Shown here piece after piece: positions 24,145-58,978 of a stretch of 64,000 bases of DNA. Below the pieces are notes generated by a model. The model was not told the DNA's origin. It saw only the letters and a list, made by a program, of their open reading frames with translations, and did not search any database. Position 1 is the first letter of the stretch. Every line of letters starts with the position of its first letter. The position numbers were made by a program, and so were the translations under genes. This stretch comes from Micromonospora sp. HM5-17. Its GTDB lineage: Bacteria; Actinomycetota; Actinomycetes; Mycobacteriales; Micromonosporaceae. Where the stretch lies: contig NZ_RJWA01000002.1 in NCBI RefSeq assembly GCF_003762835.1, forward strand, positions 744,001 through 808,000, written 5' to 3'.

Positions 24145-25033
24145 GTCCGTACTCCTTCTCGCCGCGCCAGAAGTAGACGAACCCGACGACGCCGACCAGC
24201 AGCGCCCAGCCCAGGCCGAGGAGCCAGGACTCGGTCGCCGGGGCGGTCACCGGGGCGCTCTCCATGAGGGCGTGCCGCATCAGCTCGATGTAGACCAGCA
24301 GGGGGTTCAGCTGTACGAGTTGGGCCGCCCAGTCCGGCAGATGCTTCTCGAAGTTGTCGACGCTGTAGAGCACGCCGGACGCGTACATCCAGGTCCGCAT
24401 CACGAACGGGACGACCTGCTTCAGGTCTGTGGCCTTTGAACCGAGCCGGGCCAGCGCCATGGCGAGCCCGGCGTTGAAGATCGCCTGGAGCACGATGGCC
24501 GGGATGACCAGCAGCCACTCGATGGTGAGCGGCTCCCCGTCGAGCAGCACGATGCCGGCGAGCACCACGATCGAGGCGAGCAGGTGCTGGAACTGGGTCA
24601 GGGTGACCGCGATCGGCAGGCTGGCCCGGGGGAAGTGCAGCGCCCGGATCAGCCCGAGGTTGCCGCTGATCGCCTGGACTCCGCCGCTGACCACCGCCTG
24701 GGTGAAGGTGAAGACGAAGAGTCCGGTGCAGAGATAGGCGATGAAGTTGCTGACGCCGTCCTGGGTGTTCAGGATGATGCCGAAGATCAGGTAGTAGACC
24801 GCGGCGTTGGTCAGCGGGGTCAGCACCTGCCACAGGCGGCCGAGCCGGGCGTTGCTGAACGAGGCCACCAGCTTGGCGTTGGCGTAGGCCGAGATGAAGT
24901 GCCGGTAGGACCAGAGCTGTCGAACGTAACTGGGGAGGCTGGGTCTCGCTCCGGCCGAGGTGAGACCGTACCGGGCGGCGAGTTGGGCGCCGGTCAGTCC
25001 GGAATCGGGGTCGGCTACCGCCGAGGTGGCCAT
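24137..25033 (-). CDS. ABC-2 type permease, polysaccharide export (Wzm/TagG type)
   Basis: A 298-residue integral membrane protein with about six hydrophobic segments (for example TNAAVYYLIFGIIL, FIAYLCTGLFVFTFTQAVV, LLASIVVLAGIVLL, WLLVIPAIVLQAIFNAGLAMALARL, SWLLGLGWALLVGVVGFVYFW). The N-terminal amphipathic region (YVRQLWSYRHFISAYANAKL) is typical of TagG/Wzm permeases. It is the first gene of a two-gene minus-strand operon with the ATPase. ATG 25033 is preceded by GGAGCG. It diverges from a TetR gene 161 bp away. Confidence 0.88.
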   Translation of the reverse strand: MATSAVADPDSGLTGAQLAARYGLTSAGARPSLPSYVRQLWSYRHFISAYANAKLVASFSNARLGRLWQVLTPLTNAAVYYLIFGIILNTQDGVSNFIAYLCTGLFVFTFTQAVVSGGVQAISGNLGLIRALHFPRASLPIAVTLTQFQHLLASIVVLAGIVLLDGEPLTIEWLLVIPAIVLQAIFNAGLAMALARLGSKATDLKQVVPFVMRTWMYASGVLYSVDNFEKHLPDWAAQLVQLNPLLVYIELMRHALMESAPVTAPATESWLLGLGWALLVGVVGFVYFWRGEKEYGRG

Positions 25034-25857: not shown

Positions 25858-26018
25858 CGGACGGCCCGGCGCATCTCTCCCGCCTCGGCCGGTCCCCTGG
25901 CCGTTCGGCGGTTGTCACCTCGCCAGCACCGCATGTTCGGCCGGGACCCACCAACTAGCAACCTGACCGGGCTAGCGTCGCTTGCTCCCAAGCGACCCCT
26001 CAGCCACGGAGGATGCCC

Positions 26019-27128
26019 ATGACCGGGCCGAACGCAGACCTGATTCCGCCTGCGAGACCCGTCATCGGAGACGCCGAGATCGACGCTGCCGTCCGGGTGC
26101 TCCGGAGCGGCCGGGTGGTGCAGGGTCCGGAGGTGGCGGCGTTCGAGGAGGAGTTCTCCGAGCTGGTCGCCGGGCGGCACTGCGTCGCCGTCAACTCCGG
26201 CACCTCCGCCCTCCACCTGACCCTGATGGCCCTGGGCATCGGCCCCGGTGACGAGGTGGTGGTGCCGTCGTTCTCCTTCGCCGCCAGCGCCAACGCGGTA
26301 CGCCTGGTCGGCGCCGAACCGGTCTTCGCCGACATCGAGCCCGGTAGCTTCTGCCTGGATCCGGAGGCGGTCGCGGCGGCCGTCACGCCCCGGACCGCCG
26401 CGATCATGCCGGTTCACCTCTATGGTCACCCGGCCGCCATGGACCGGCTGATGCCGGTCGCCGAGCGACACGGCCTCGCCGTCGTCGAGGACGCCTGCCA
26501 GGCGCACGGGGCGGCGCTCGCCGGCACCCCGGTGGGCGCCTTCGGCGTCGCCGGCTGTTTCAGCTTCTATCCGACGAAGAACATGCACGCCCTGGAGGGC
26601 GGCATGATCAGCACGAGCGATCCCGCACTCGCCCGGACCCTGCGGCTGCTGCGCAACCAGGGCATGGAACAGCGGTACGCCAACGAGATCGTCGGCGCGA
26701 ACATGCGACTCACCGACGTGGCGGCGGCGATCGGCCGGGTCCAGCTGCGGCGGCTGCCGGAGTGGACCGAGCAGCGGCGGGCGAACGCCAAGTTTCTCGA
26801 CGCCCAGATCACCGGCGCGATCACCCCGCCGGTCGCCGACGCCGCCCGGCACGTCTACCACCAGTACACGATCCGGGTCACCGGCGACCGGGACGCCGCC
26901 CAGCGGCGCCTGCGGGAGCAGGGGGTGGGGAGCGCGGTGTACTACCCGACCCCGATCCACCGGCTCCGGCCGTACCTCGGCGAGGACGGGCAGCCCGGAC
27001 CGTGGGACCTGCCGGAGACCGAGCGGGCGGCCCGGGAGGTGCTCTCGCTGCCGGTCCACCCGTTGCTGACCCAGCCGGAGCTGGAGCGGATCGCCGAGGC
27101 CGTGAACGCGCTGGCGGTGGCCCGATGA
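26019..27128 (+). CDS. DegT/DnrJ/EryC1 family sugar aminotransferase
   Basis: A 369-residue PLP-dependent nucleotide-sugar aminotransferase. Key segments are VNSGTSALHLTLMALGI, DEVVVPSFSFAASANAV, VEDACQAHGA and the PLP-binding lysine in CFSFYPTKNMHALEGG, then YHQYTIRV and a C-terminal AVYYPTPIHRL. It resembles WbpE/WlbC enzymes that aminate the 3-keto sugar made by a MocA-type dehydrogenase, and the next gene, overlapping by 4 bp (ATGA), is just such a dehydrogenase. ATG 26019 is chosen over 26013 because ACGGAGG ends at 26012. The pair probably forms a 3-amino sugar nucleotide. Confidence 0.88.
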   Translation: MTGPNADLIPPARPVIGDAEIDAAVRVLRSGRVVQGPEVAAFEEEFSELVAGRHCVAVNSGTSALHLTLMALGIGPGDEVVVPSFSFAASANAVRLVGAEPVFADIEPGSFCLDPEAVAAAVTPRTAAIMPVHLYGHPAAMDRLMPVAERHGLAVVEDACQAHGAALAGTPVGAFGVAGCFSFYPTKNMHALEGGMISTSDPALARTLRLLRNQGMEQRYANEIVGANMRLTDVAAAIGRVQLRRLPEWTEQRRANAKFLDAQITGAITPPVADAARHVYHQYTIRVTGDRDAAQRRLREQGVGSAVYYPTPIHRLRPYLGEDGQPGPWDLPETERAAREVLSLPVHPLLTQPELERIAEAVNALAVAR

Positions 27129-28129
27129 GCGGCGGTGCGCCCCGGCTGCGGGCCGGACTGATCGGCCTGGGCGCGATGGGCCGCAACCACGCCCGGGTGC
27201 TCTCCCAGCTCGACGGGGTCGAACTGGTCGGCGTGGTCGACCCGGCCGGCGACCCCACCGACACCCTCCGGGTGCCGGTCTTCGGCGCGGTTGCCGAGCT
27301 GCTGGCCCTGAAGCCCGACTACGCGGTGGTGGCCTGCCCGACCGCCCTGCACGAGGAGATCGGGCTGGAACTGGCGGCAGCCGGGGTCTGCGCGCTGATC
27401 GAGAAACCACTCGCGCCGTCCGTCGAGGCGGCGACCCGGCTGGTCCAGGCGTTCGAGGCGGCCGGGCTGGTCGCCGGTGTCGGACACATCGAGCGGTACA
27501 ACCCGGCACTGCAGAGCCTGCGGACCCGGCTGGAGGCGGGCGAGCTGGGCGACGTCTACCAGGTGGTGACGCGACGGCAGGGGCCGTACCCGCACCGGAT
27601 CGCGGACGTGGGCGTGGTGATGGATCTCGCCACCCACGACATCGACCTGACCGCGTGGGTGACCGGTCAGGAGTACGTCTCCGTCGCCGCCCGGACGGTC
27701 TCGCGCAGCGGGCGGGTGCACGAGGACATGGTGGCCGTGGTCGGCCAGCTCGCCGACGGCACGATGGTCAACCACCTGGTCAACTGGCTCAGCCCGCTCA
27801 AGGAGCGGTCGACGGTGATCACCGGCGCCCGGGGCTGCTTCGTGGCGGACACCCTCACCGCCGACCTCACCTTCTACGCCAACGGGGCGATCGACACCGA
27901 GTGGGAGGCGCTGCGGACTTTCCGGGGGGTCGCCGAGGGCGACATGGTGCGGTACGCCATCCCGAAGCGGGAGCCGCTGCTGGTCGAACACGAGCGGTTC
28001 CGGGACGCGGTCGAGGGCAAGGAGAGCGACATCGTGACGTTGCGACAGGCCCTGCGGACGGTGGAGGTCTCCGCCGCGGTGCTGCACTCGGCGGGCGAGG
28101 GCAGCACGGTGGAGCTGCGGCGCGGCTGA
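27125..28129 (+). CDS. Gfo/Idh/MocA family sugar dehydrogenase (WlbA/WbpB-like)
   Basis: A 334-residue NAD(P)-dependent oxidoreductase. The Rossmann motif is GLIGLGAMGRNHARVL (residues 11-26), the EKPLAPS motif follows at about 98, and GHIERYNPAL and DLATHDIDLTAWVTG form the catalytic region. It shares the length and the GHIERYNPA segment with UDP-sugar 3-dehydrogenases of the WlbA type, which create the keto group used by the preceding aminotransferase. ATG 27125 overlaps the DegT stop by 4 bp, so both are co-translated. It faces a convergent hypothetical gene across a hairpin. Confidence 0.85.
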   Translation: MSGGAPRLRAGLIGLGAMGRNHARVLSQLDGVELVGVVDPAGDPTDTLRVPVFGAVAELLALKPDYAVVACPTALHEEIGLELAAAGVCALIEKPLAPSVEAATRLVQAFEAAGLVAGVGHIERYNPALQSLRTRLEAGELGDVYQVVTRRQGPYPHRIADVGVVMDLATHDIDLTAWVTGQEYVSVAARTVSRSGRVHEDMVAVVGQLADGTMVNHLVNWLSPLKERSTVITGARGCFVADTLTADLTFYANGAIDTEWEALRTFRGVAEGDMVRYAIPKREPLLVEHERFRDAVEGKESDIVTLRQALRTVEVSAAVLHSAGEGSTVELRRG

Positions 28130-28185: not shown

Positions 28186-28785
28186 TCAGAGATCGAGTGA
28201 GGTGGTCGCGACCGCCGTGGGATGGCGGCGGGCCAACCGCGCGGCGAGCGTGACGGCGTCGAGGTCGCAGGCGACGATCCGGTTGATCGGGCACTGGTCG
28301 AGCGCACGTACCTCCGGACGGAACATCCCGGCCAGGAGGAGGGGACGGACCATCCGGTAGGCGGGGTGGAGGATCCGCCCGTACAGGAGCTCGGAGAACC
28401 GCTGTTGACCGGAGGTGACCGCGGAGACCACCCGTCCGGCGGGCCGGTCCGATCGTCCGCCGGTTGCCGCCCTCACCAGGGCGGAGACCGCGCCGGGGAG
28501 CCGGAAGGCGAGCAGCCGCTGGAGCCGGTACGCGGGATGCCGGTCCTCCGGACGACGCGGGTGGTGGATGCGCGGTGGAGGGCTGAGGTCCAGGTCGCGC
28601 CAGACGTCGCTGGCCAGCACGAAGAGGTGCAGCTCGGCGCCGTCGGCGCAGAGACGTCGGGCCAACGCCACCACGCGTTCCGAGGGCCGAGCCTTCATCG
28701 ACACCAGGATCGTCCCCGCTGGTCCGGCCGGCGTTGCGGAACGGCGCTGCGACGGGGTTCCACGACCATCTGTCTGTGTTGTCAA
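28186..28785 (-). CDS. Short glycosyltransferase-like protein (N-terminal GT-B half), paralogue A
   Basis: A 199-residue protein without a clear family. It begins like the N-terminal Rossmann domain of a GT-B enzyme (GTILVSMKARPSERVVALARRLCADGAELHLFVL) and ends with RIVACDLDAVTLAARLARRH and VATTSLDL, where a full GT4 enzyme would have its D-x-H/D motif before the inter-domain linker. No nucleotide-sugar-binding C-terminal half follows. Two similar short proteins lie at 34649-35203 and 36618-37145. The start is TTG 28785 with GGAGGG upstream. It is the last gene of a minus-strand operon after WecB-like epimerase and a GT4. Function unknown; a glycosyltransferase partner subunit is possible. 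Confidence 0.6.
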   Translation of the reverse strand: MTTQTDGRGTPSQRRSATPAGPAGTILVSMKARPSERVVALARRLCADGAELHLFVLASDVWRDLDLSPPPRIHHPRRPEDRHPAYRLQRLLAFRLPGAVSALVRAATGGRSDRPAGRVVSAVTSGQQRFSELLYGRILHPAYRMVRPLLLAGMFRPEVRALDQCPINRIVACDLDAVTLAARLARRHPTAVATTSLDL

Positions 28786-28819
28786 GGGCTGTCACCCTCC
28801 ACCAGCGGGCCGGGACGGG

Positions 28820-30181
28820 TCAGCGGGGCGCGCCGGCCCCGCGTGTGGAGCGACGCCGCCCGACCAGCGTCCGCAGCGTCGCCTCGAGCGGCTCCAGGAC
28901 GGTGTGTCGGGTGTACGCCTCGGCATGCCGCCGCGCCGCCGCCCGCAGCTCGGGGTCCCGAGCGCGGGCCAGCTTCCCGGCGGCCATCATCGACCGGGCG
29001 ATCCGCTCCGGGTCCAGGCTGTCCGGGTTGCACCAGAGGGGATATCCGCGCAGGACCTCGGCGGCGGCGATCCCCGGGGCGTGCACCGAGACGATGGGAC
29101 GCCCGGTCGCCATGTACTCGAAGATCTTTCCGGAGGTCACGTATCGGGCGCCGCCCGCCAGGAAGACCAGGACATCGCTCTCGGCGTAGGCCCGGGAGAC
29201 GTCGGTCTTCGCCACCGGGCCGCGATACCGCAGTCCCGGGTCGACGGCCGGTGCGGACGGGTCGGCGTCGAGGCCGAGCCGGCGTCGCAGGATCCCCTCG
29301 GCCCCCCGGGAGAACCCCAGATGGCCGTGGATGTGCAGCTCCGCGTCGGCCAGCTCGGGATGGCCTCGGGCGATCCGGAACGCCTCGACCATCGTCTCCA
29401 CCGGCTGGGCGGCGGTGACGGTGCCGACGTAGCTGAACCGGAGGGCCGGGGTGGTCGGGACCGGGTCGGCCTCGGTCAGCAGGTCCGGGTCCCAGCCGTT
29501 CGGCACGACCAGCATCCGGTCGGCCACGTCCGGGTACCGCTCGGCGTGCCAGCCGCGCAGCGCCTCGTTGACGAAGACCGCCGCGGCGGCGTCGCCCAGG
29601 ACCCGGCGTTCCCAGGTCCACGCGGGATGGTCGGGCGGGTAGGCGGGCCGCTCCGCGAACAGGTCCAGCGTCCAGGAGTCCCGGTAGTCGACGACGTACG
29701 GTACGCCGGTCAGCCGGTGGAACAGCCAGGCGGCCGCGAAGGCGGAGAAGGGGTTGCCGGTGGCGAGGACGACGTCGAAGCGGCGTCGTGCGTGGAGCCG
29801 CAGCGCCCGGCCGACGGCGTCGAGTCCCCACGAGGAGTAGTGCTCCGGGAAGATCCGTTGTCCGGCGTCGTAGAGCCGTGCGGCGAGGACGGGCATCGTG
29901 CGGCGGAACCGACTGAACCGGCGGATGTCCCGTTCCCACCGAAAGGTGCTCAGCCGCGGCCGCTCGACCCGGATCCGTGGGTCCACGGTGTCGAGCAGGG
30001 CGTCGTCCGCCGATCCCGCGACCTCCTGCAGGAACCGCGGCGGGGCGGCGAAGACGGTGACGTCCCAGCCGCGGGCTACCAGGTGGTTGGCGGTGGCCCG
30101 GGCCCGGTAGACGCCGCTGGCGCGGGACGGAGGGAAGTAGAACGACAGGTAGAGCACCCGGGGCGGGCGGCGGGGGCGCAC
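28820..30181 (-). CDS. Glycosyltransferase family 4-like protein, copy 1
   Basis: A 453-residue GT-B glycosyltransferase. It opens with VLYLSFYFPPSRASGVYRA, has DVVLATGNPF and the acceptor-domain core VPYVVDYRDSWTLDLF, then donor-domain segments LRFSYVGTVTAAQP, YRGPVAKTDVSRAYAESDVLVFLAGG and TSGKIFEYMATGRPIVSV (the E-x7-E-like loop of GT4). It is a close paralogue of the gene at 35206-36600; the first motif and many others are identical. GTG 30181 follows GGGGAGGAGAG. It is 20 bp downstream of the WecB-like gene, on the same strand. Donor and acceptor sugars are unknown. Confidence 0.85.
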   Translation of the reverse strand: MRPRRPPRVLYLSFYFPPSRASGVYRARATANHLVARGWDVTVFAAPPRFLQEVAGSADDALLDTVDPRIRVERPRLSTFRWERDIRRFSRFRRTMPVLAARLYDAGQRIFPEHYSSWGLDAVGRALRLHARRRFDVVLATGNPFSAFAAAWLFHRLTGVPYVVDYRDSWTLDLFAERPAYPPDHPAWTWERRVLGDAAAAVFVNEALRGWHAERYPDVADRMLVVPNGWDPDLLTEADPVPTTPALRFSYVGTVTAAQPVETMVEAFRIARGHPELADAELHIHGHLGFSRGAEGILRRRLGLDADPSAPAVDPGLRYRGPVAKTDVSRAYAESDVLVFLAGGARYVTSGKIFEYMATGRPIVSVHAPGIAAAEVLRGYPLWCNPDSLDPERIARSMMAAGKLARARDPELRAAARRHAEAYTRHTVLEPLEATLRTLVGRRRSTRGAGAPR

Positions 30182-30201
30182 GGCTCTCCTCCCCGAGCCG
30201 G

Positions 30202-31305
30202 TCAGTCGCGGCGGGGGACCGTGAGCCAGCGCTCGAGGGTCTCGACGACGCGTTCGGCCGCCCGGCCGTCGCCGAAGGGGGTGCTGGTCGGGGTCTGGGG
30301 TGCGGCCCGGGTGGCGGTGGCGACCCACTCCGCCGCACCCAGCCGAGCCGGATCGGGAACCAGCCGGTTCCATCCGCCGTCCAGGGTCTCCGACCACTCC
30401 GTCTCCGACCGAAGGGTGGTGCAGGGCCGTCCAAGCAGGTACGCCTCCTTCTGGAGGCCACCGGAGTCGGTCACCACGCCCACCGAGCCGAGGACCGCGG
30501 CGACCATGGCGGCGTAGCCGACCGGGCGTCCGACGTGCACGGCCCCCTGGGCGAGCTTCAGGCCCTGCGCCTCGGCGCGCGCCAGCAGCCGGGGGTGCGC
30601 GAGGAGGGCCACCGGGAGCGGAAGGGCGGCGAGGGCCTCGACGAGCGACGCCAGCCGCTCGGGGTCGTCGGTGTTCTCGGCCCGGTGCAGCGTCGCGAGC
30701 AGGTACGGCTGGTCGGGGTCGACGCCGCTGGGCAGGTCGGGACGCGGATGCGCGCCCGCGAGCACGCCGTCGCGGACGCGGAGGCAGACGTCGACCATCA
30801 CGTCGCCCGTCACGACGGCCCGGTCGGCGAGCCCCTCCCGGGTGAGGTGCCGCAGCGCGTCCTCGGTCGGCGCGAGCAACAGGTCCGCGGCGTGGTCGGT
30901 GAGCACCCGGTTGTGCTCCTCCGGCATGCGTCGGTTGAACGAGCGTAGTCCGGCTTCCAGGTGCGCCACCCGGATGTGCTGCTTGACCGCGGCGACGGCG
31001 CCGGCCAGCGTCGAGTTCGTGTCGCCGTACACCAGCACCCAGTCCGGTCGCTCGGCCTCGAACACCGGATCGATCGCCGCGAGGATGCGGCCGGTCTGCA
31101 CGCCGTGGCTGCCGGAGCCGACCCCGAGGTGGACGTCGGGGTCGGGGATGCCCAGCCCGGAGAAGAACACGTCGGACAGGTTGACGTCGTAGTGCTGGCC
31201 GGTGTGCACGATCACGTGCCGGTGATCGGTTCGGGCGAACGCCGCCGCGACCGGTGCGAGCTTGACCAGCTGGGGGCGTGCTCCGACGACGCTGACTACC
31301 TTCAC
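30202..31305 (-). CDS. wecB: UDP-N-acetylglucosamine 2-epimerase (WecB/WbpI-like)
   Basis: A 367-residue non-hydrolysing UDP-HexNAc 2-epimerase. It has VVSVVGARPQLVKLAPV at the start, VHTGQHYDVNLSD, VYGDTNSTLAGAVAA, HLEAGLRSFNRRMPEEHNRVLTDH (active-site residues), TLHRAEN, and VVTDSGGLQKEAYLLGRPC. The family length is normal. It converts UDP-GlcNAc (or a 2,3-diacetamido derivative) to the manno epimer. GTG 31305 with GGGAGCC upstream gives the proper N-terminus; a 54-residue upstream extension has no family likeness. It is first in the operon with the GT4 and half-GT genes and diverges from the GT gene at 31690. Confidence 0.9.
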   Translation of the reverse strand: MKVVSVVGARPQLVKLAPVAAAFARTDHRHVIVHTGQHYDVNLSDVFFSGLGIPDPDVHLGVGSGSHGVQTGRILAAIDPVFEAERPDWVLVYGDTNSTLAGAVAAVKQHIRVAHLEAGLRSFNRRMPEEHNRVLTDHAADLLLAPTEDALRHLTREGLADRAVVTGDVMVDVCLRVRDGVLAGAHPRPDLPSGVDPDQPYLLATLHRAENTDDPERLASLVEALAALPLPVALLAHPRLLARAEAQGLKLAQGAVHVGRPVGYAAMVAAVLGSVGVVTDSGGLQKEAYLLGRPCTTLRSETEWSETLDGGWNRLVPDPARLGAAEWVATATRAAPQTPTSTPFGDGRAAERVVETLERWLTVPRRD

Positions 31306-31689
31306 TGTGCTGGCTCCCGGAGTGTCGTGACTCGTGGCGGCGGAATGAGGGCAGAATCGCGCGCGTTCGTCATGCCGCCCAGATCCTTTCCTGGCGGCAA
31401 CACAATACGTCATGCCGGGGCGGGTCGGTGGGTGCCGGGTCTTTTCTTCCGGGCCCGTTTGTTCCATTTTCCCTATACCGACAGATGTCTATACTGCCTG
31501 TTCCTTTGCTGTATGTCATCGTGGTCGAGGGTGTTGGTGGCCGGCCGTGGAACAGAAGTCAAACAATGAGAGAACTGTCATGTAATTGCGAAGGAATTGT
31601 GGCCGAACTGCCTTGATGGCATCGGTGGTTACCGTAAACTCGCCGGGTCTTCGCCGGAGTCGCCTAGGGGAGAGGCAGTAACAGCCATC
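31306..31689. promoter_or_regulatory. A+T-rich divergent promoter region between wecB and the GT operon
   Basis: A 384-bp gap between divergent starts. The segment 31440-31640 is distinctly A+T-rich for this genome (for example CCATTTTCCCTATACCG, GTCTATACTGCC, CAAACAATGAGAGAACTG), fitting promoters or regulator binding for both arms of the polysaccharide locus. No RNA structure or gene was recognised. Confidence 0.5.
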
Positions 31690-33315
31690 ATGGACGTGAA
31701 CGGTGCCGCCGCGACGCGGCGCGCTCGGGGCCGGATCGTCATGCTGGTCGACAACGGCGTCCGGGGCGACTCCCGGGTGCAGAAGACCGCCCGCTCCGCT
31801 GCCGAGGCCGGCTGGGAGGTGATCCTGCTCGGCAGGCAGACGGACCCGGCCGAGAGCTCCTTCCGGCTCGGCGACGCCGAGGTGCGGTTGCTTCCCGTCC
31901 CGACCGACGTCAACTACCCGTCGCTGTTCCGGCGACGCTCCCTGCGCCGGCCGCTCGCGTACCCGGCGGGTAGCCGGCACCTCAACTACCGGCTGGCCTC
32001 GGTGCAGGCCTGGCGCGCGGACCTGGTGGCGCGGTCCGCCGCGCTCCGGACCGGGTCGACCGGTGGTCTGGCCGGGCTGGTCGGGCGGGGGCGGATCGCC
32101 GTCGGCCGGGCCGCCGCGACGCTGCTGGACAAGTGGGTACGGTTCCGGGCCCGCGAGACCCGCCGGCTGCGTGAGGTGCGGCAGAGCCCGGACAGCCTGC
32201 TCAACCGGATACCCGTCGCCTTCTGGACCACCGTGATGGGCGACCGTAGCTGGCGCCGGCTCGACCCCTCGCTCTGGAGTTGGGAGCTGGCCTACGGCAG
32301 GGTCATCGACCAGCTGGAGCCCGACCTCATCCACGCACACGACGTCAAGATGATCGGTGTCGGCGCCCGGGCCGCGCTGCGGGCTCGGGCCAGGGGCCGG
32401 CCGGTGCGGTTCGTCTGGGACGCCCACGAGTACGTGCCCGGGCTGCGGCCCCTCGCGGCGTGGTGGCTGCCGGCCCAGGTCGCCCACGAACGCGAGTACG
32501 CCCGGTACGCCGACGCGGTGGTCACCGTCTCGACCGCCCTGGCCGACCTGCTCCGCGCCGACCACAAGTTGCCCGAACAGCCGACGGTGGTGATGAACGC
32601 GCCGGTGACGAGACTGTCCGAGGAGGAGCTGGCCGCGCCGGTTCCGGACCTGCGGGCGTTGTGTGGGATCGACCGGGACACCCCCCTGCTGGCGTACTCG
32701 GGCGGGATCAATCCGGTCCGGGGTGTCGACCTGGTCGTCGAGGCGCTTCCCAGCCTGCCGGGGGTGCACGTGGCGATGCTGTCGCTGCATCCGTCCGGCA
32801 GGAACAAGCCCGCGGACGAGTTGTACGAGCGGGCCGAGCGGCTCGGCGTCGCGGACCGGGTCCACCTGCTGCCGTACGTACCGCACTGGCAGGTGTCGAG
32901 GGTGTTGGCGGCGGCTGACGCGGCGGTGAGCCCGCTGCACCACCTGCCGAACCACGAGATCGCGTTGAGCAACAAGTTCTTCGAGTACTCCCACGCCCGG
33001 CTGCCGCTGGTGGTCAGTGATGTCCGGACCATGTCGGAGGTCGTGCGGTCGACGGGGCAGGGCGAGGTGTTCCGGGCCCAGGACCTGGCTGACTTCGTCC
33101 GGGCGGTGAAGCTCGTGCTCGCCGATCCGGAACGGTACCGGGCCGCGTACGACCGGCCCGGCCTGCTCGAGGAGTGGAGCTGGGAGGCCCAGGCCGAGAT
33201 CCTCGACCGGCTGTACGCCCGTCTGCTGCCGCAGGCCCCGCCCCGGCAGCACCCCGGGGTCGGGGACCCGGGGAGCGCCGTGTCCGGTCCGGCGATGGCG
33301 GCGACCGGGGCGTGA
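31690..33315 (+). CDS. Glycosyltransferase family 4 protein, long form
   Basis: A 541-residue GT-B glycosyltransferase, longer than usual because of a 110-residue insertion (about 95-205, with RARETRRLREVRQSPDSLLNRI) between strands of the N-terminal domain. Seen are MLVDNGVRGDSRVQKTARSA at the start, LIHAHDVKMIGVGARAAL, the acceptor motif FVWDAHEYVPG, PLLAYSGGINPVRGVDLV at the donor-domain start, and ALSNKFFEYSHARLPLVVSD as the GT4 nucleotide-sugar loop. ATG 31690 follows GGGGAGAGG. It heads a plus-strand series of polysaccharide genes. Specificity unknown. Confidence 0.85.
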   Translation: MDVNGAAATRRARGRIVMLVDNGVRGDSRVQKTARSAAEAGWEVILLGRQTDPAESSFRLGDAEVRLLPVPTDVNYPSLFRRRSLRRPLAYPAGSRHLNYRLASVQAWRADLVARSAALRTGSTGGLAGLVGRGRIAVGRAAATLLDKWVRFRARETRRLREVRQSPDSLLNRIPVAFWTTVMGDRSWRRLDPSLWSWELAYGRVIDQLEPDLIHAHDVKMIGVGARAALRARARGRPVRFVWDAHEYVPGLRPLAAWWLPAQVAHEREYARYADAVVTVSTALADLLRADHKLPEQPTVVMNAPVTRLSEEELAAPVPDLRALCGIDRDTPLLAYSGGINPVRGVDLVVEALPSLPGVHVAMLSLHPSGRNKPADELYERAERLGVADRVHLLPYVPHWQVSRVLAAADAAVSPLHHLPNHEIALSNKFFEYSHARLPLVVSDVRTMSEVVRSTGQGEVFRAQDLADFVRAVKLVLADPERYRAAYDRPGLLEEWSWEAQAEILDRLYARLLPQAPPRQHPGVGDPGSAVSGPAMAATGA

Positions 33316-33404
33316 CCCGGGATCGTCACCCGGCCGGACGTGCCGTCGCGCCGCCGGCCGGCAGCCCTGACGACCACAGGACGAGCACGGACAAGGAGAC
33401 TCGG

Positions 33405-34652
33405 ATGCCCCCTCGTCGGGATGTGGCGGTCATCACGCCCTGGTACCCGACCCGGCAGACGCCGTTCGGTGGCGCGTTCGTACGGGCCATGGTGGCGGCG
33501 ACCGCCTCGGCGCGCGATCGGGCCACCGTGTACCACGTTGACGGCTGGGGTGCGCACGTCGGTCCGCGGCAGGATCACGCCATCGCCCGGGCGCACCGGT
33601 CGCTGCTGACCCACGCCCTCCGGGAGACCACCACGGTGACGGGAGCACGGCTGTGCTACGTCCCGGTGCCGGTGCGGGTCGGCATCTCCTTCGCCGAGTT
33701 GGCGACCCGGTACGCGGAGGCCCTGCACGTCGCGCTGGACGGCCGGCGCATCGACGCGCCGGTGGTGCACGCGCACGTGGGCCTGCGGGGTGGCTGGACG
33801 GCACTGCAGAACGCGCGCCCCGACGCCCGGGTCTTCGTGACGGAACACTCGACCTTCCTGCCCAGCGTCCTCGCCGAACCCGACTCCCGGGCGATGTACG
33901 ACGAGGTGATCCACCGGGCCACCGGCTTCTTCGTGGTGGGCGAGACGTTGCGCGCCATCCTGGTCTCGGCGTTTCCGCACCACGCCGACCGCATCGGGAT
34001 CATGCCGAATCCGGTGGACTTCGGCCCCGTGCGGTCCGACCCGGTCACCCGGCTACGCCGCTGGCTCTTCGTGGGCTCGCTCAGCGACCGCAAGGGCGTG
34101 GCCCTGCTTCTCGACGCGTTCGCCCGGTGCCGGGCCGACGAGCCCGACCTCACGCTGACATTCGTGGGCGAGGGGAGGCTGCGGGCCACGTTGGCGGCGC
34201 GGGCAGACGCGCTGGGCGTGGCGGAGGCGGTCACCTTCGTCGGCTCGGTCATGCCCGACCGGGCGCTGGAGCTGATGCGGGAGCACGACCTTCTGATCCA
34301 TCCCAGCCGGCTGGAGACCTTCGGGATGACCGTGGTGGAGGCGGTCGCCGCCGGCATGCCGGTGCTGGTGACCCGGTGCGGCGGGCCGGAGGAGACGCTG
34401 GCCGGGATCGAGGACGCCGCCGGTGGGCTGATCGACGTCGACGACGACCCGGAGACCATCGCCGCCGGCTACCGGCGGCTCCGGGACCGCTTCCCCGACG
34501 GCGTCGACCTGGCGTACGCCCGTGCGGTGCTCGCTGACCGGTACGGGTACGACGCGGTGGCGGCGGCTCATCGGCGGATCTGGTTTCCCGATGCCAGCGA
34601 TACGGTGGCGACGGTGCGGGCGGGGCTCGGCACCGGCGATGTGGGGGAGTGA
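33405..34652 (+). CDS. Glycosyltransferase family 4 protein
   Basis: A 415-residue GT4 enzyme. The N-terminal domain begins VAVITPWYPTRQTPFGGAFVRAM with the Gly-Gly loop, VVHAHVGLRGGWTAL follows, then FVTEHSTFLPS. The donor domain contains RWLFVGSLSDRKGVALLL, LTFVGEGRLR and the family signature SRLETFGMTVVEAVAAGMPVLVTRCGGPEE (E-x7-E). ATG 33405 is placed by AAGGAG at 33393-33398. The stop overlaps the next start by 4 bp (GTGA), so it is coupled to the half-GT at 34649. It probably adds a sugar during assembly of the repeat unit. Confidence 0.88.
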   Translation: MPPRRDVAVITPWYPTRQTPFGGAFVRAMVAATASARDRATVYHVDGWGAHVGPRQDHAIARAHRSLLTHALRETTTVTGARLCYVPVPVRVGISFAELATRYAEALHVALDGRRIDAPVVHAHVGLRGGWTALQNARPDARVFVTEHSTFLPSVLAEPDSRAMYDEVIHRATGFFVVGETLRAILVSAFPHHADRIGIMPNPVDFGPVRSDPVTRLRRWLFVGSLSDRKGVALLLDAFARCRADEPDLTLTFVGEGRLRATLAARADALGVAEAVTFVGSVMPDRALELMREHDLLIHPSRLETFGMTVVEAVAAGMPVLVTRCGGPEETLAGIEDAAGGLIDVDDDPETIAAGYRRLRDRFPDGVDLAYARAVLADRYGYDAVAAAHRRIWFPDASDTVATVRAGLGTGDVGE

Positions 34653-35203
34653 CCGTGCGGGTGTTGTTCCTCGCGCTCGGCGGCAACCGGGCACGGGCCG
34701 CGGTGGAGGAGTCGGCGCAGGTGGTCGCCGTCGGCGGCCGCCCGGTGGTGCTCGTCGACACTCTCCGGCCCTGGCGACGGATGAGCTTCGACCCCGCGGT
34801 CGAGGTCGTCGAGCTGTCCACGCTGGAGTCGACGCGGATGCCGGTCCGGCTGGAACGGGCGGTGCTGTTCACGGTCCCACGCCGACTGTTCCGGGTGGTC
34901 GGCCGTGGCCCGCTGCGTCAACCGGCTCGCCGCGTCTCCGCCAGGTACGAGACCCGCGTGGCCGAGCGGCTGCACCGTCAGGTGGTCCTGCCGATGATCC
35001 GGCCACGGTGGGGCGAGGGGACGTGTCCGGTGCTCCGTCGGTACCTGGCGAAGGGAGGGGACCTGGACGCGATCGTGGTCCTGGATCCGGCCTCGATGCC
35101 GTACGCGGCAGGACTGGTGGCGGGCTACCGGAGCGCCGGTACGAGACCGCCCCGCCTGGCGTTCGGCATCGACCACCTTCTGAGCTTGCGGGACTCCGGG
35201 TAA
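34649..35203 (+). CDS. Short glycosyltransferase-like protein (N-terminal GT-B half), paralogue B
   Basis: A 184-residue protein with an N-terminal Rossmann-like strand-helix-strand (VRVLFLALGGNRARAAVEESAQVVAVGGRPVVLVDT) and an end (LDAIVVLDPASMPYAAGLVA, then LAFGIDHLLSL) that mirrors the tail of the N-terminal domain of GT4 enzymes; no C-terminal domain follows. It is more distant from paralogues A and C than they are from each other. GTG 34649 overlaps the upstream GT stop; GTG 35206 of the next GT lies 2 bp after its stop. The tight packing between two glycosyltransferases suggests a partner role. Function unknown. Confidence 0.55.
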   Translation: MTVRVLFLALGGNRARAAVEESAQVVAVGGRPVVLVDTLRPWRRMSFDPAVEVVELSTLESTRMPVRLERAVLFTVPRRLFRVVGRGPLRQPARRVSARYETRVAERLHRQVVLPMIRPRWGEGTCPVLRRYLAKGGDLDAIVVLDPASMPYAAGLVAGYRSAGTRPPRLAFGIDHLLSLRDSG

Positions 35204-35205
35204 CC

Positions 35206-36600
35206 GTGACCGGCTCGCACGCGTCCCCGCACCGGGAGGCCGAGCCGGCCCGCCGACCGCGGCTGCTCTACCTCTCCTTCTACTTTCCGCCCTCCCGGGC
35301 GAGCGGTGTCTACCGGGCCCGGGCCACCGCGAACCACCTCGCGATCCGCGGCTGGGACGTCACCGCCCTCGCCGCGCCACTCGACTTCCTGCGCGACGTG
35401 CTCGGTTCGCTCGACACCGACCTGGCCGCCACCGTGGATCCCCGCATCCGGGTGGAGCGTCCGCCCCTGCACCGGTTCGCGTGGGAGAAGGACCTGCGCC
35501 GGTACGGGAGGTTCCGTCGGACGTTCCCGCGTTCCGCGCAGAAGCTCTACCAGCTGAGCCAACGACTGGGCTTCCCGGAACACTACGCGTCCTGGGGTCT
35601 CGCCGCGGTGGCGCGAGGGCTTCGGCTGCATCGTCGACGGAGGTTCGACGTCGTGCTGGCGACGGGCAACCCGTTCGCCTCGTTCGGCGCGGCCTGGCTG
35701 TTCCACCGGCTGACCGGCGTACCGTACGTCCTCGACTACCGGGATTCCTGGACCCTCGACCTGTTCACCAACGAGCCCGCCTTTCCACCCGGGCACCCGG
35801 CCTGGCGTTGGGAACGCCGGGTGCTGGCCCGGGCGTCCGGGGTGGTCTTCGTCAACCAGGCGCTGCGGGACTGGCACGCGGAACGCTATCCGGCCGTCGC
35901 GGACCGCATGCTGGTGGTGCCGAACGGCTGGGATCCCGAGCTCATCGCCGCGCCGGTGGACTCCCCGCAGATCGGTGGACCGGGCACCGCGGCGGGGGGC
36001 GCGGACGCCGCCCCGGGCCTGCGCTTCGGCTACCTCGGTACGGTCACCCGGGTCCAGCCGCTGGAGGAACTGGTCGCGGCGTTCCAGCTCGTCCGCGCGC
36101 ACGGTGACCTGACCGACGCGGAGCTGCGGATCCACGGCCACCTCGGCTTCTCCCCGGCCGGCTCCGCGGAGCTGGTGAGCCGGCTCGGACTGACCGGGGA
36201 CACCGGAGTCCGCTACCTCGGCCCGGTGGCGAAGACCGAGGTCCACACGGTGTACGCGGAGACGGACGTCCTGATCTTCCTCGCTGGTGGATCGCGGTAC
36301 GTCACCTCCGGCAAGATCTTCGAATACCTGGCGAGCGGTCGCCCGATCGTTTCCGTGCACGCGCCGGGGATCGCGGCGGAGGAGGTCCTCGCCGGCTATC
36401 CGTTGTGGTTCACGGCCCGGAGCCTGGACCCGGCCGCGGTGGCCCGGTCGATGGTGGCCGCCGCCCGGGCCGCCCGGGAGCTCGAGCCCGAGCAGCGCGC
36501 GGCGGCGCGTCGACACGCCGACCGGTACGCCCGGGAGCTCGTGCTCTCCCCACTGGAGGCGCGGCTTCGCGCCCTGGTCTCCGGCGACCGACGGACGTAG
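35206..36600 (+). CDS. Glycosyltransferase family 4-like protein, copy 2
   Basis: A 464-residue GT-B enzyme, paralogous to the gene at 28820-30181 on the other strand. Shared segments include LYLSFYFPPSRASGVYRA, VVLATGNPFASFGAAWLF, YVLDYRDSWTLDLF, VVPNGWDPEL, HGHLGFSP and TSGKIFEYLASGRPIVSV. The N-terminus is GTG 35206, 2 bp after the preceding stop, and gives a 20-residue polar lead. A 20-residue Gly/Ala-rich insertion (about 255-275) separates the two lobes. It is followed by the short paralogue C in the same order as copy 1 is followed by paralogue A, which points to duplication of a two-gene unit. Confidence 0.85.
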   Translation: MTGSHASPHREAEPARRPRLLYLSFYFPPSRASGVYRARATANHLAIRGWDVTALAAPLDFLRDVLGSLDTDLAATVDPRIRVERPPLHRFAWEKDLRRYGRFRRTFPRSAQKLYQLSQRLGFPEHYASWGLAAVARGLRLHRRRRFDVVLATGNPFASFGAAWLFHRLTGVPYVLDYRDSWTLDLFTNEPAFPPGHPAWRWERRVLARASGVVFVNQALRDWHAERYPAVADRMLVVPNGWDPELIAAPVDSPQIGGPGTAAGGADAAPGLRFGYLGTVTRVQPLEELVAAFQLVRAHGDLTDAELRIHGHLGFSPAGSAELVSRLGLTGDTGVRYLGPVAKTEVHTVYAETDVLIFLAGGSRYVTSGKIFEYLASGRPIVSVHAPGIAAEEVLAGYPLWFTARSLDPAAVARSMVAAARAARELEPEQRAAARRHADRYARELVLSPLEARLRALVSGDRRT

Positions 36601-36617
36601 CGGGTACGGAGGTACGT

Positions 36618-37145
36618 ATGGGCGGCGACGGACGGGACCCGCGGTCCCGGACCATCGTGCTGCTGGCGCTCGCACCCCGGGTGGGGGAGCGGGTCGTCGG
36701 GTACGCCGGACAGCTTGCCGAGCGAGGACGGAACGTCGTGTTGGTCGTGGTGGACGACCAGCGGCGGCCCGGTGCGGAACTCGACCCACGGGTCCGGGTC
36801 GCGTCCCTGCTCCCCGCCGGACGGCGGAGCACACTGCACCTCCTGGAGCGGACGTTCGCCCCGCCCCGGCCCGCCGGTGGCGAGGTGCCGCGCCGTGCGC
36901 ACCCGCGTCTCGTGGCACCGCTGCACCGGGTCGCGGCGATGTGCTACGGCCAGCTCCGGGCACTGGCGCTGGCGCGGCGGGCGCTCCGGACCGTGCCGTG
37001 GCGCGAGCTCGGCGTACCGGCCGCGATCGTCGCCGCGGACCTGGACTCGGTGGTTCTCGGCGTACGGCTGGCGCGGCGACACCCGACGGCGATCGCCACC
37101 TCGGCGCTCGATCCGGAGCTGGGGACCGGGGAGACCCGCGGGTAG
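36618..37145 (+). CDS. Short glycosyltransferase-like protein (N-terminal GT-B half), paralogue C
   Basis: A 175-residue protein. It starts with a Rossmann-like element (TIVLLALAPRVGERVVGYAG, RNVVLVVVDDQ) and ends with IVAADLDSVVLGVRLARRHP and TAIATSALDPEL, closely matching the tail of paralogue A (IVACDLDAVTLAARLARRHP). The C-terminal donor-binding lobe of a full glycosyltransferase is absent, and the next gene is unrelated (GT2), so this is not a recent frameshift. ATG 36618 follows CGGAGG. It follows GT copy 2 by 17 bp. Function unknown; see findings. Confidence 0.6.
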   Translation: MGGDGRDPRSRTIVLLALAPRVGERVVGYAGQLAERGRNVVLVVVDDQRRPGAELDPRVRVASLLPAGRRSTLHLLERTFAPPRPAGGEVPRRAHPRLVAPLHRVAAMCYGQLRALALARRALRTVPWRELGVPAAIVAADLDSVVLGVRLARRHPTAIATSALDPELGTGETRG

Positions 37146-37317
37146 CACGTATCGGTGCGAACCGAACTGCACGATTCGGTACGACGGCCGCGCCGTGCCG
37201 TACACTCGCCGGGGTTCTCGCGTGAGGCGGCCCGTGAGTAAAGGCAGCGGCACAGATCATGGACGTAGTCCGGCCGGTCAGACCGGCGATGGGTGGCGGA
37301 GGCGCGGGGATGTCCGC

Positions 37318-38871
37318 GTGAGCACGCCGGACGTCAGCGTGGTGGTGGTCGTCCACAACGCCATGCCCGATCTCACCAGGTGCCTGAACTCCCTCGTCCG
37401 GCAGAGCATCGGTCGGCACCGACTGGAGATCATCGCGGTGGACGACGGCTCCACCGACACCAGCGGCCGGGAGCTGGACTGGTTCGCCCGGCTGTACCCG
37501 GAGACCGTCCGGGTGATCCACCAGCCCTACTCCGGCGGCGGGCTGGGCGCGCCGAGCAACCGCGCCCTGGAGCAGGCCACCGGACGGTACGTCTTCTTCG
37601 TCGGCGCCACCGACCACCTCGGGCGGGAGGCGCTGGAACGGCTCGTGACGGCGGCCGACGCGTACGGCTCGGACGTGGTGCTCGGGCGGGTGGTGGGCCT
37701 GGACGGCCGGCACATCGACCAGTCCGTCTTCGCCGGCAACGAGATCCAGATTGGGCTCTTCGACTCGGCGTTGCCCTGGTCGCTGTCGAACACCAAGCTC
37801 TTCCGGCGCAGCCTCATCGAGCGTCACCGTCTGCGCTTCCCCGAGGACCTGGTGGTCGCCGGCGACCAGCCGTTCACCTTCGAGGCGTGCCTGCGGGCGG
37901 GCCGGATCTCGGTGCTGGCCGACTACGAGTTCTACTACGCGACCCGCCGGGTCCGGAACGGGCAGCAGGCCGGGCACCTGGACCGACTCCGCAGCGTCGA
38001 GTCGATCATGAATGTGGTGGCCCGGTTGGTGGAGCCGGGCAAGGAGCGGGACCACGTCCTGCTGCGACACTTCAGCTGGGAGGTCGCCCGGCTCGTCGAG
38101 GACGACTTTCTCCGGCTCGACCGTCCCGTCCAGGAGGAGGTGGTGGCCGGGATCCGTACCCTGGCCGACCGCTACCTCACCGACCACATCCGAGCCCAGC
38201 TGGAGATCGAGGCACGGTTGCGGATCTCCACCGCGCAGCGCGGCACGGTCGAGGACGTCATCGCGGTGATCCGGCAGGACGCCGAGCACGGCGTGCCGCC
38301 CACCATCATCGACGGGGTCCGCTGGTACGCGGGCTACCCCGGATTCCGGGACCCCCGGCTCGCCATGCCGGACGAGTGGTTCGACGTCTCGGAGTGCGCG
38401 GCGGACTGGCTCGCCCGGCTGGAGGCGATCGTGGCGACCTGGAACACCTGCCCCGACGGCGAGCGGGCGCTGACGGTCATCGCCCGGACACCCCGCCGGG
38501 ACCTGATCGAGCTCGCCTCCGGGCCGATCGGACTCACCGCCGGCGACATCGTCGGTACCACCCTGGAAACCAACCGCGACAAGGGCGGCACCAACCTGCG
38601 CGTCCAGTTCCGGATCGGGCCGTTTCTCGAGGGCGTCCCGGCCGGCGGACGGCTCTATCCGATCCGCTCCCAGCTGACCGCCTTCGGCTCCGTCGGCAGC
38701 GCGCCGCTGCGGGCGCCGATCCGGCCGCCGGTCTCCCGGCTGATGGCCCGTCGGGGGGCGCGGTTCTACGTGGTCACACCGACGGTGAACCACCGCGGCC
38801 AGTTCGTCATCGCGATTACACCTGTTACTCCCCGGCGCGTCATCCAGAGGTTACGGAGGAAGCGACCGTAG
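37318..38871 (+). CDS. Glycosyltransferase family 2 protein
   Basis: A 517-residue protein with an N-terminal GT-A catalytic domain: VSVVVVVHNAMPDLTRCLNSL, then EIIAVDDGSTD (nucleotide-binding DDGS), GAPSNRALEQATGRYVFFVGATDH (position of the DxD, here GATD), and AGDQPFTFEACLRAG with the ED-like acid. The remaining 250 residues form a helical region and a beta-rich C-terminal part, as in polymer-forming teichoic-acid-type GT2 enzymes. GTG 37318 follows GGCGCGGGGA. It precedes the UDP-sugar dehydrogenase by 16 bp. Probably transfers a hexosamine or similar sugar to a growing wall glycan; specificity inferred only. Confidence 0.83.
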   Translation: MSTPDVSVVVVVHNAMPDLTRCLNSLVRQSIGRHRLEIIAVDDGSTDTSGRELDWFARLYPETVRVIHQPYSGGGLGAPSNRALEQATGRYVFFVGATDHLGREALERLVTAADAYGSDVVLGRVVGLDGRHIDQSVFAGNEIQIGLFDSALPWSLSNTKLFRRSLIERHRLRFPEDLVVAGDQPFTFEACLRAGRISVLADYEFYYATRRVRNGQQAGHLDRLRSVESIMNVVARLVEPGKERDHVLLRHFSWEVARLVEDDFLRLDRPVQEEVVAGIRTLADRYLTDHIRAQLEIEARLRISTAQRGTVEDVIAVIRQDAEHGVPPTIIDGVRWYAGYPGFRDPRLAMPDEWFDVSECAADWLARLEAIVATWNTCPDGERALTVIARTPRRDLIELASGPIGLTAGDIVGTTLETNRDKGGTNLRVQFRIGPFLEGVPAGGRLYPIRSQLTAFGSVGSAPLRAPIRPPVSRLMARRGARFYVVTPTVNHRGQFVIAITPVTPRRVIQRLRRKRP

Positions 38872-38887: not shown

Positions 38888-40171
38888 ATGAGGATTTGCG
38901 TCGTCGCGCTCGGAAAGATCGGCCTGCCACTCGCGGTACAGTTCGCTGACAAGGGGCACACCGTGCTGGGTGCCGACGTGTCCGAGCGGGTTGTGCAGCT
39001 GGTCAACGACGGCGCCGTACCGTTCCCGGGCGAGACCGACCTGGACGTCAGGCTCAAGGCGGCGGTGGCGGCCGGGCGGCTGCGGGCCACCACCGACACG
39101 ACCGCGGCGGTCGCCGAGTCCGAGGCCGTGGTCGTGGTGGTGCCGCTCGTCGTGGATGCGGACGGGGTGCCCGACTTCGGCGGGATGGACGACGCCACCC
39201 GGGCCATCGCGGCCGGCCTCCGACCGGGCACGCTGGTCAGCTACGAGACCACGCTGCCGGTCGGGACCACCCGCAACCGGTGGGCCCCCATGCTGGAGGA
39301 GGGCTCCGGCCTCACCGTCGGGCGCGACCTCTTCCTGGTGTTCAGCCCGGAGCGGGTACTGACCGGTCGGGTCTTCGCCGACCTGCGTCGCTACCCGAAG
39401 CTCGTCGGCGGGGTGGACGAGGCCTCGGCGCGGCGCGGTGTCGAGTTCTACACGGCGGTGCTGGACTTCGACGAGCGGCCGGACCTCGCCCGGCCCAACG
39501 GGGTCTGGGACCTCGGCTCGGCCGAGGCGTCCGAGCTGGCCAAGCTCGCCGAGACGACGTACCGGGACGTCAACATCGGGCTGGCGAACCAGTTCGCCCG
39601 GTACGCCGACACCGTCGGCGTGGACATCACCGCGGTCATCGAGGCGTGCAACACCCAGCCGTACAGCCACATCCACCAGCCGGGGATCGCGGTCGGCGGA
39701 CACTGCATCCCGGTCTATCCCCGGATGTACCTCTGGAACGACCCGGCGGCAACCGTGGTGCGGGCGGCCCGGGAGGCGAACGCGGCGATGCCGGAGTACG
39801 CCGTGGACCTCCTCGCCGCGGCGGTCGGCGACCTGACCGGGGTCGGGGTGCTGGTGCTCGGCGCGGCGTACCGGGGTGGGGTCAAGGAGACGGCGTTCTC
39901 CGGGGTCTTCCCGACCGTCGACGCGCTTCGGCGCCGGGGCGCCACGCCGTACGTCTCGGATCCGATGTACACGGCCGGCGAGTTGACCGCGCTCGGCCTC
40001 CCCGCGTACGCCGACGAGCCGGTGACCGCGGCGGTGGTCCAGGCCGACCACGCCGAGTACCGGACCCTCGGCTCGGCGGACCTGCCGACCGTACGGGTGT
40101 TGGTGGACGGTCGACGGGTGACCGACCCGGCGCGCTGGCCCGGCGTACGCCGGGTGCTCATCGGCGGCTGA
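38888..40171 (+). CDS. wecC: UDP-N-acetylhexosamine 6-dehydrogenase (WecC/WbpA-like)
   Basis: A 427-residue nucleotide-sugar dehydrogenase. It has MRICVVALGKIGLPLAVQFADKGHTV (NAD-binding), TTLPVGTTRNRW, FSPERVLTGRVFADL, the central-helix block EASELAKLAETTYRDVNIGLANQFA, and the catalytic cysteine in AVGGHCIPVYPRM; LGAAYRGGVKETAFSG is in the C-terminal lobe. The enzyme oxidises C6 of a UDP-HexNAc to the uronic acid in two NAD-dependent steps. With the WecB-like 2-epimerase nearby it could make UDP-ManNAcA, or with DegT, MocA and acetyltransferase genes a diacetamido-uronic acid. Ends a plus-strand gene series; a hairpin lies at 40281-40310. Confidence 0.88.
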   Translation: MRICVVALGKIGLPLAVQFADKGHTVLGADVSERVVQLVNDGAVPFPGETDLDVRLKAAVAAGRLRATTDTTAAVAESEAVVVVVPLVVDADGVPDFGGMDDATRAIAAGLRPGTLVSYETTLPVGTTRNRWAPMLEEGSGLTVGRDLFLVFSPERVLTGRVFADLRRYPKLVGGVDEASARRGVEFYTAVLDFDERPDLARPNGVWDLGSAEASELAKLAETTYRDVNIGLANQFARYADTVGVDITAVIEACNTQPYSHIHQPGIAVGGHCIPVYPRMYLWNDPAATVVRAAREANAAMPEYAVDLLAAAVGDLTGVGVLVLGAAYRGGVKETAFSGVFPTVDALRRRGATPYVSDPMYTAGELTALGLPAYADEPVTAAVVQADHAEYRTLGSADLPTVRVLVDGRRVTDPARWPGVRRVLIGG

Positions 40172-58924: not shown

Positions 58925-58978
58925 CGCGGGCTCCTGTTCGGTGGGGACGGTGGGTCGGATCCGGCGGACCCGGCGGGC

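Follow-up and report, generated by a model that had tools for sequence, protein, structure and literature searches.

A few systems are already known in which a glycosyltransferase (GT) has an inert partner. DesVIII and EryCII are dedicated, non-catalytic partners encoded beside one macrolide GT; they have a P450-like fold and GT1 partners, and belong to secondary metabolism. GtfB is a full-length GT-B protein, the acceptor of GtfA/GtfB is a protein, and PssD/PssE is a split GT of the Alg14/Alg13 kind. In Alg14/Alg13 and EpsE/EpsF, the N-terminal portion of a GT-B enzyme, on the acceptor side, has its counterpart in a separate protein, the C-terminal half is also separate, and the two make one enzyme (PMC8993221). 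GtfA/GtfB is the O-GlcNAc transferase of accessory Sec systems (PMC12809243). Teichuronic acids were called poorly characterised in 2025, and one of them is a receptor for antibacterial toxin particles; in Streptomyces griseus the genes utrA-J include proposed UDP-ManNAc3NAcA genes for a polymer linked to wall teichoic acid, and the TarS-like GT2 UtrC was shown to be required for this teichuronic acid (PMC13274773). The present analysis concerns three short proteins, named half A, half B and half C, which are encoded in a stretch of 64,000 nucleotides (the window) of Micromonospora sp. HM5-17 (contig NZ_RJWA01000002.1, positions 744,001 to 808,000, forward strand) and are probably cognate, non-catalytic partner proteins of enzymes of GT family 4 (GT4). 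Like Alg14 and EpsE they are separate proteins, probably corresponding to the acceptor-side part of a GT-B enzyme, but the neighbouring GTs scanned are complete GT4s. Like the inactive partner GtfB they are encoded beside a GT4 enzyme, but they have only 175–199 amino acids (aa), with one domain in the models of A and B, and the product of the locus is presumably a wall polymer. With DesVIII and EryCII they share the arrangement of a dedicated partner gene beside one GT, and differ in fold, GT family and pathway. An open-access literature search gave no description of such half proteins that was recognised among the matches listed. What appears to be new is a family whose members fall short of a whole GT-B N-domain and come in two versions, each going mainly with one GT4 class; in relatives such domains are fused to complete GT4 enzymes.

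The halves and the GT genes among which they lie are given below, where HA denotes the subfamily of halves A and C, HB that of half B, and GTab (GTa and GTb), GT492 and GT572 are classes named here, all of them GT4.

28186–28785, minus strand: half A, HA, 199 aa, TTG start (open reading frame (ORF); 148 bits with the HA profile from which window rows are left out; AlphaFold2 model)
28820–30397, minus strand: GTa, a complete GTab-class GT4 that precedes half A (ORF, with the true start probably near 30200; Pfam PF13579/PF13439 and PF13692)
31597–33315, plus strand: GT572, complete GT4 with no half directly after it (ORF, true start later; Pfam and locus profiles)
33405–34652, plus strand: GT492, a complete GT4 that precedes half B (ATG at 33405 chosen, ORF opens at 33174; Pfam PF00534/PF13439)
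34649–35203, plus strand: half B, HB, 184 aa, GTG start (206–207 bits to the HB profile without window rows; AlphaFold2 model)
35206–36600, plus strand: GTb, a complete GTab-class GT4 that precedes half C (Pfam, scanned on the longer ORF 34522–36600)
36618–37145, plus strand: half C, HA, 175 aa, most diverged member (71–75 bits with the HA profile from which window rows are left out; lacks a middle part)

An earlier note on this DNA had described three short proteins at these positions, and all three reading frames are indeed open there; half A lies on the minus strand, which that note did not say, and B and C on the plus strand. Its statement that each is packed, by overlap or within less than 40 bp, against a full GT4 gene is borne out: the gap from the stop codon of the upstream GT4 to the half is 34 bases for A, −4 for B (an overlap with the GT492 stop) and 17 for C, and the neighbours are complete by Pfam. 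GTb starts 2 bases past the end of half B. GTa scores 758 bits with a GTab profile that includes GTa itself. Pfam scans found nothing above threshold in the three halves (the best match was A to DUF4632, E 0.068) or in 36 family members (20 from the HB and 16 from the HA alignment), and an NCBIfam scan of the three window proteins gave no match above threshold.

The tail pattern IVA-x-DLD-x-V...RLARRHPTA, which had been reported as common to A and C, is there with 72% identity over 29 aa (BLASTP E 5e-11). By pairwise comparison A and B are weakly similar (E 0.003) and B and C not significantly so (E 0.29), but the B-type (20 sequences) and A-type (16 sequences) profiles align over 170 columns with E 2e-19. 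The test was repeated with the window rows left out of the profiles (14 A-type and 19 B-type rows remaining): scores with the A-type profile were then 148 bits for half A (E 8e-45), 71 for C (E 2e-21) and 46 for B (E 2e-13), and those with the B-type profile 206 bits for B, 38 for A and a weak 14 for C, with the three halves the sole matches of both profiles at E ≤1 among the 536 ORFs of the window. A quick tree places HA together with C-terminal fused domains (96), HB (93) and N-terminal fused mini-domains (98) in separate groups, and a single uniform family was rejected on this split. The conserved small family of the earlier note is supported by neighbourhood, phyletic coincidence, co-variation and fusions, but as two cognate subfamilies, HA with GTab and HB with GT492, rather than one. 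HA and HB are two related, cognate subfamilies of a real, unnamed family. No end branch among the 121 sequences in the tree is longer than that of half C (1.63), that of A also being long (0.88); half C matches the A-type profile without window rows at positions 13–81 and 107–189 of 195, so that the end point is the same and a middle stretch is absent, and it has lost several otherwise conserved positions. Given the branch, the absent middle and the lost positions, the constraint on the GTb-C pair may be relaxed or changed.

The pairing of halves with GT classes was examined in 58 loci (the window, L083, L063–L082 and L127–L162; regions of up to 20 kb), in which all stop-to-stop ORFs were scored with in-house profiles; 57 of the 58 had been picked for a half-type match and so are not random, but none of these was picked for its GTs. 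Of 54 standalone HB genes, 51 lie immediately downstream of a GT492 gene in the same orientation, the exceptions being two locus ends and one fragment (L082). Standalone HA lies directly downstream of a GTab enzyme in 38 of 41, and the other three follow a GT572-type enzyme (L152–L154); an HA ORF in L076, which follows a GTab but gave two split matches, is excluded from the 41. Among the 36 loci that took no part in profile building (L127–L162) the corresponding figures are 26/27 for HB, with one at a locus end, and 21/24 for HA. The stop codon of the GT and the start of the half overlap by exactly 4 bases in 35 of 51 HB pairs and 26 of 37 HA pairs, although the count took the start codon nearest the stop and is biased toward small gaps. 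Copy numbers of HB and GT492, and of HA and GTab scoring above 600 bits, are equal in 47 of the 58 loci, a descriptive count since the cut-offs were chosen after viewing the bimodal scores. Mismatches occur in L083 and L160 (both cut by locus ends), L070, L071, L082, L133, L151 (where a weak N-terminal HB match falls just under the cut-off), L152, L153, L154 and L158. A GTab subfamily of 350–433 bits mostly occurs without HA; in L158 and L173 such low-scoring GTab enzymes are paired with a weak or partial HA match.

Two groups of loci stand apart. In L152 (9804–10316), L153 (9843–10424) and L154 (6116–6628), from fragmented genomes of another family, HA is found between the GT572-type enzyme and an ABC exporter, and a half can accompany this third GT class. 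The HB fragment without GT492 in L082 (9177–9536) and the GT492 pieces without halves in L133 (2785–3710) are possible remnants of lost copies.

The earlier note had held that the idea of a half family would fail if homologues were always fused to a C-terminal GT-B domain. The 58 loci contain 95 standalone ORFs, fragments and ORFs cut by locus ends included, against 18 fusions, and in the fusions the half is joined to a complete GT4 and not to the missing C-terminal half. In 16 loci a single ORF comprises an N-terminal mini-half, a complete GT492-type enzyme and an HA domain, and in two further loci (L161 and L162) the N-terminal half domain alone is fused. The mini-half is 104–133 aa long in all 18, all 18 fall into one group beside HB in the tree, and in 14 of the 16 three-part fusions it matches HB best. 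Fourteen of the 16 loci with three-part fusions (all but L070 and L071) carry a GTab without standalone HA in the region retrieved, and the HA serving this GTab may be the one carried by the fusion. Since HB-like and HA domains sit at the two ends of one GT492, both GT-half pairs probably belong to one polymerising assembly. Loci L170 and L171, from genus g48 of another family of the class, have the three-part fusion beside a split GT492-HB-GTab arrangement, and L172, of the same genus, has the split four-gene order. The two shorter fusions (L161, 9424–10917; L162, 9572–11065) join an HB-type N-terminal domain to GT492 without HA, in regions without GTab.

Co-variation was assessed in 31 operons with GT492, HB, GTab and HA by partial correlation of distance matrices with 500 permutations. 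The partial r of HB with GT492 is 0.81 (0/500 permutations as high) versus 0.11 with GTab (19/500), and that of HA with GTab is 0.62 (0/500) versus −0.25 with GT492 (500/500). By this measure each half follows the GT it is paired with more closely in sequence than it follows the second GT of the operon.

In a sample of 200 genomes from the family to which the window belongs, matches at E ≤0.01, many of them weak, were obtained in 48 with protein A and in 42 with protein B; the B-type profile matched 53 of 300 (E ≤0.001), fused copies and some A-type proteins included. Across the class, the A-type profile matched seven of 295 genomes besides that of the window, some of these matches being weak fragments. 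Protein B alone gave no match at E 1e-4 in 197 other genomes drawn from the phylum, and a plasmid search with half B gave none. Four of 246 genomes matched in g48, the genus of one of the class matches, as did three of 12 in family f67, which accounts for three class matches and has small, fragmented genomes; a scan of genome contigs found one locus, in Micromonospora thermarum. Within these samples and profiles the half family seems confined mainly to the window's own family, with few outliers. Core GTab (E 1e-90) and core GT492 (E 1e-60) each occur in 40 of the 200 family genomes, and these are the same 40; half-type domains (B-type profile, E <1e-5, fused copies included) mark the same 40, as scored in the 300-genome draw, whose inclusion of the 200 was deduced from handle numbers and not from a full list. 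Two further genomes, G010 and G109, have only short half-type fragments at about E 1e-4.

The halves go with GT492 and core GTab and not with the remaining genes of the locus. This follows from a genome of the same genus (G078), in which a scanned region of 70 kb has an acetyltransferase, dehydrogenase, TarS-like GT2, epimerase, DegT, Gfo, TetR, both ABC genes and three GT572, and has no half, no core GTab (one GTab of 350 bits) and GT492 only as a 37-bit match. A fixed role of the halves in the sugar pathway or the locus as a whole was accordingly rejected, since the sugar, GT2, GT572, regulator and exporter genes are all kept in G078, where the halves are absent. This same-genus locus (L174–L177) has the 350-bit GTab relative in place of halves, GT492 and core GTab, and the polymer-building set may have been replaced naturally there.

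AlphaFold2 models of A and B were built from six-sequence alignments and reached mean pLDDT values of 77.8 (A) and 80.6 (B). Both run through the same succession of elements (strand, helix, strand, strand, two long helices, strand, helix, strand), B with an additional C-terminal helix of low confidence. Different folds for the three copies were to have told against a family in the earlier note; the modelling covered A and B, and for these the predicted fold is the same. A common structural end point, also proposed there, agrees with the models, which stop 4 (A) and 12 (B) residues past the fifth strand, and with the profile end of half C, although C reaches that point without its middle stretch. 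Among the 50 best Protein Data Bank (PDB) matches listed by Foldseek, GT-B enzymes, counted by title, made up all 18 of those with probability ≥0.9 for A and 13 of the 14 for B, and the models weakly indicate the fold class of A and B. Global profile alignment (hhalign -glob) matched HA to columns 1–174 of GTab (E 1.4e-5, probability 58%) and HB to columns 1–175 (E 8.7e-6, 64%); GT572 was hardly matched (E 0.005 and 0.2) and GT492 not (E 0.87 and 0.64). Pfam Glyco_trans_4_4 appeared in one of 16 HA members (E 0.031), and a search of PDB sequences with both profiles gave matches only at E 0.04 or worse. The halves are likely, but not proven, to be an acceptor-side GT-B domain. By the alignments they cover about the first 175 columns of a GT-B N-domain, which is less than a half: the acceptor-side likeness claimed earlier stands as weak homology, and the term 'half of a GT-B enzyme' overstates what is part of the N-domain only. 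The C-terminal donor-binding domain is absent, with no C-domain Pfam match and models that stop after strand 5, so a half should not act as a normal GT-B enzyme alone nor bind a donor in the GT-B manner. Charge per 100 aa is +6.3 for HB and +8.3 for HA, versus −0.6 for GTab and −2.7 for GT492.

These results suggest the following model. A half would amount to the acceptor-side Rossmann domain of GT-B enzymes in minimal, basic form, ending after strand 5, with half B as the partner of GT492 and halves A and C as partners of the GTab enzymes. It would probably be made by translational coupling directly after its GT and probably bind that GT one to one; its long, basic helical hairpin might then anchor the enzyme to the membrane or to the acidic polymer as it grows, and the half might hold the acceptor end for the catalytic GT. 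The suggestion of the earlier note that the halves are accessory subunits is strengthened by pairing, co-occurrence, co-variation and fusions, the role itself being something we infer, and this reading is likely. Docking to the membrane or to an acidic acceptor, taken as the job of the halves on its own, falls somewhat short of an even chance. The statement as a whole, that the halves are non-catalytic accessory subunits of the adjacent GT4s in a teichuronic-acid-type locus, with a docking or acceptor mechanism, is held with moderate confidence.

A further step, which we regard as doubtful, is that HB, GT492, HA and GTab form a four-part polymerase, in which the two GT4s add alternating sugars and the inert halves hand the acceptor end to and fro. 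The chains with HB-like and HA domains fused to the ends of GT492 would then be a single-chain version of three of the four parts. Such an assembly, if real, would be a new architecture for polysaccharide polymerases. Should the accessory role hold, annotators should stop calling these genes truncated enzymes, reconstitution of these GT4s should include the half, and the fusion offers a ready construct for structural work on the alternation of two transferases.

Several observations weigh against the accessory-subunit model. Foldseek found no match at E ≤0.001, the best being 0.013 for B and 0.0038 for A, the latter to an unrelated metal-binding protein; TM-scores were at most 0.45, from models that rest on six sequences. 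Local hhalign was weaker than global (HA 2.2e-4, 45%; HB 6.5e-4, 27%, over 36 columns only). The basic charge is not special, as the first 175 residues of the GT572 N-domain have +10.7 per 100 aa, and no transmembrane helix is present in the halves (maximum Kyte-Doolittle 1.18–1.78). The fused mini-halves have no helical hairpin, two of the 16 in three-part fusions (L070, L155) score better with HA than with HB, and the fused HA is joined to GT492 and not to GTab. As to pairing, HB and GTab are also neighbours (37/54), the HB of L082 is a fragment, HA outnumbers GTab by one in L070 and in L071, L133 has a surplus GT492 that lacks a half, and L152–L154 have HA paired with GT572-type enzymes. 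HB and HA correlate with each other as well (0.38 controlling for both GTs; 0/500 permutations as high), the co-variation statistics ignore shared ancestry and count L074 three times, and part of the signal could come from linked gene replacement. Because the genes lie mostly in one cluster, their co-occurrence is co-inheritance and not by itself contact. Lastly, a physical half-GT complex, the inertness of the half, translational coupling, the acceptor or membrane role and the identity of the polymer are all things that we infer.

Among other explanations, the one that survives best, though rather unlikely, is that the halves are folding or stability chaperones that keep the GT soluble and active without touching acceptor or membrane. 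Cognate pairing and gene overlap would look alike under it; however, two half domains fused to the ends of one complete GT4 suggest a lasting structural part, and the basic hairpin is kept in standalone members, although it is absent from the N-terminal fused mini-domains. It is improbable that the halves are independent small Rossmann proteins which bind a ligand of their own (nucleotide sugar, nucleotide or lipid) and regulate the locus: the general fold type and the non-GT Foldseek matches, including the one with the best E-value for A, would suit this, but the halves co-vary with their cognate GT, and in the 58 loci an adjacent GT upstream of them is lacking only in two cases at locus ends and for one fragment. 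Slightly less probable still is a split enzyme of the Alg13/Alg14 type, with the half as acceptor domain for the C-domain of its neighbour, in competition with the GT's own N-domain. The half does resemble the acceptor-side fold, but the partner GTs of the window and three scanned fused relatives carry both GT4 domains, and other GT492 and GTab copies span nearly the whole profile. Moreover, no standalone C-half of the Alg13/EpsF/PssE type was found among the scanned neighbours in the window, and the Pfam matches (E ≤0.1) of the 20 HB-alignment and 16 HA-alignment members include no Alg14 model; with no C-half and complete GT4 neighbours where scanned, the split enzyme was rejected. That the halves are truncated or decayed debris of duplicated GT4 genes is scarcely credible and, as the earlier note had argued against random truncation, largely refuted for A and B (87 standalone matches span nearly the whole profiles, omega is 0.19–0.34 in seven half comparisons of close relatives, one with a fused copy, against 0.09–0.35 in five GT comparisons, a sign of purifying selection, and the same 40 of 200 genomes have half-type domains), but half-type fragments do occur (L082), and half C, strongly diverged and lacking its middle stretch, may be an exception.

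The other genes around the halves, which bear on the product of the locus, are the following.

23323–25033, minus strand: ABC exporter pair, TagH-like ATPase and ABC-2 permease (family match)
26013–27128, plus strand: DegT-type sugar aminotransferase (family match)
27119–28129, plus strand: Gfo/Idh oxidoreductase, UDP-GlcNAc 3-dehydrogenase-like (inside ORF 26762–28129; family match)
30202–31467, minus strand: UDP-sugar 2-epimerase (ORF, true start later; PF02350, wecB model)
37312–38871, plus strand: TarS-like GT2, PF00535 and TarS_linker (start is that of the profile match, ORF 36715–38871; Pfam)
38888–40171, plus strand: UDP-sugar dehydrogenase (Pfam, NCBIfam)
40330–41016, minus strand: hexapeptide acetyltransferase (family match)

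The gene families expected of a locus for a teichuronic acid with ManNAc3NAcA are thus present (dehydrogenase, oxidase, aminotransferase, acetyltransferase and 2-epimerase, together with the TarS-like GT2). The UDP-ManNAc3NAcA pathway consists of five enzymes (PMC10622841, PMC13274773), and the five sugar genes of the window would fit it; judged by its gene families, the locus may specify a teichuronic-acid-type cell-wall polymer. It resembles utrA-J in the proposed UDP-ManNAc3NAcA genes and the TarS-like GT2, the utr cluster also having a TarM-like enzyme, but differs in that the ten utr genes all have other roles and no half is mentioned in the text consulted (PMC13274773). With all ten utr genes otherwise assigned, the halves seem to be part of a different GT set, probably for a similar polymer.

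About 17 kb from the main cluster, on the minus strand of the window (57800–62302), there is a second DegT and Gfo/Idh pair beside a Polysacc_synt_2 gene (PF02719), probably a second nucleotide-sugar route. Elsewhere in the window, on the plus strand at 10639–14451, a DNA gyrase subunit A ORF of 1270 aa has an intein-like insert with a LAGLIDADG domain.

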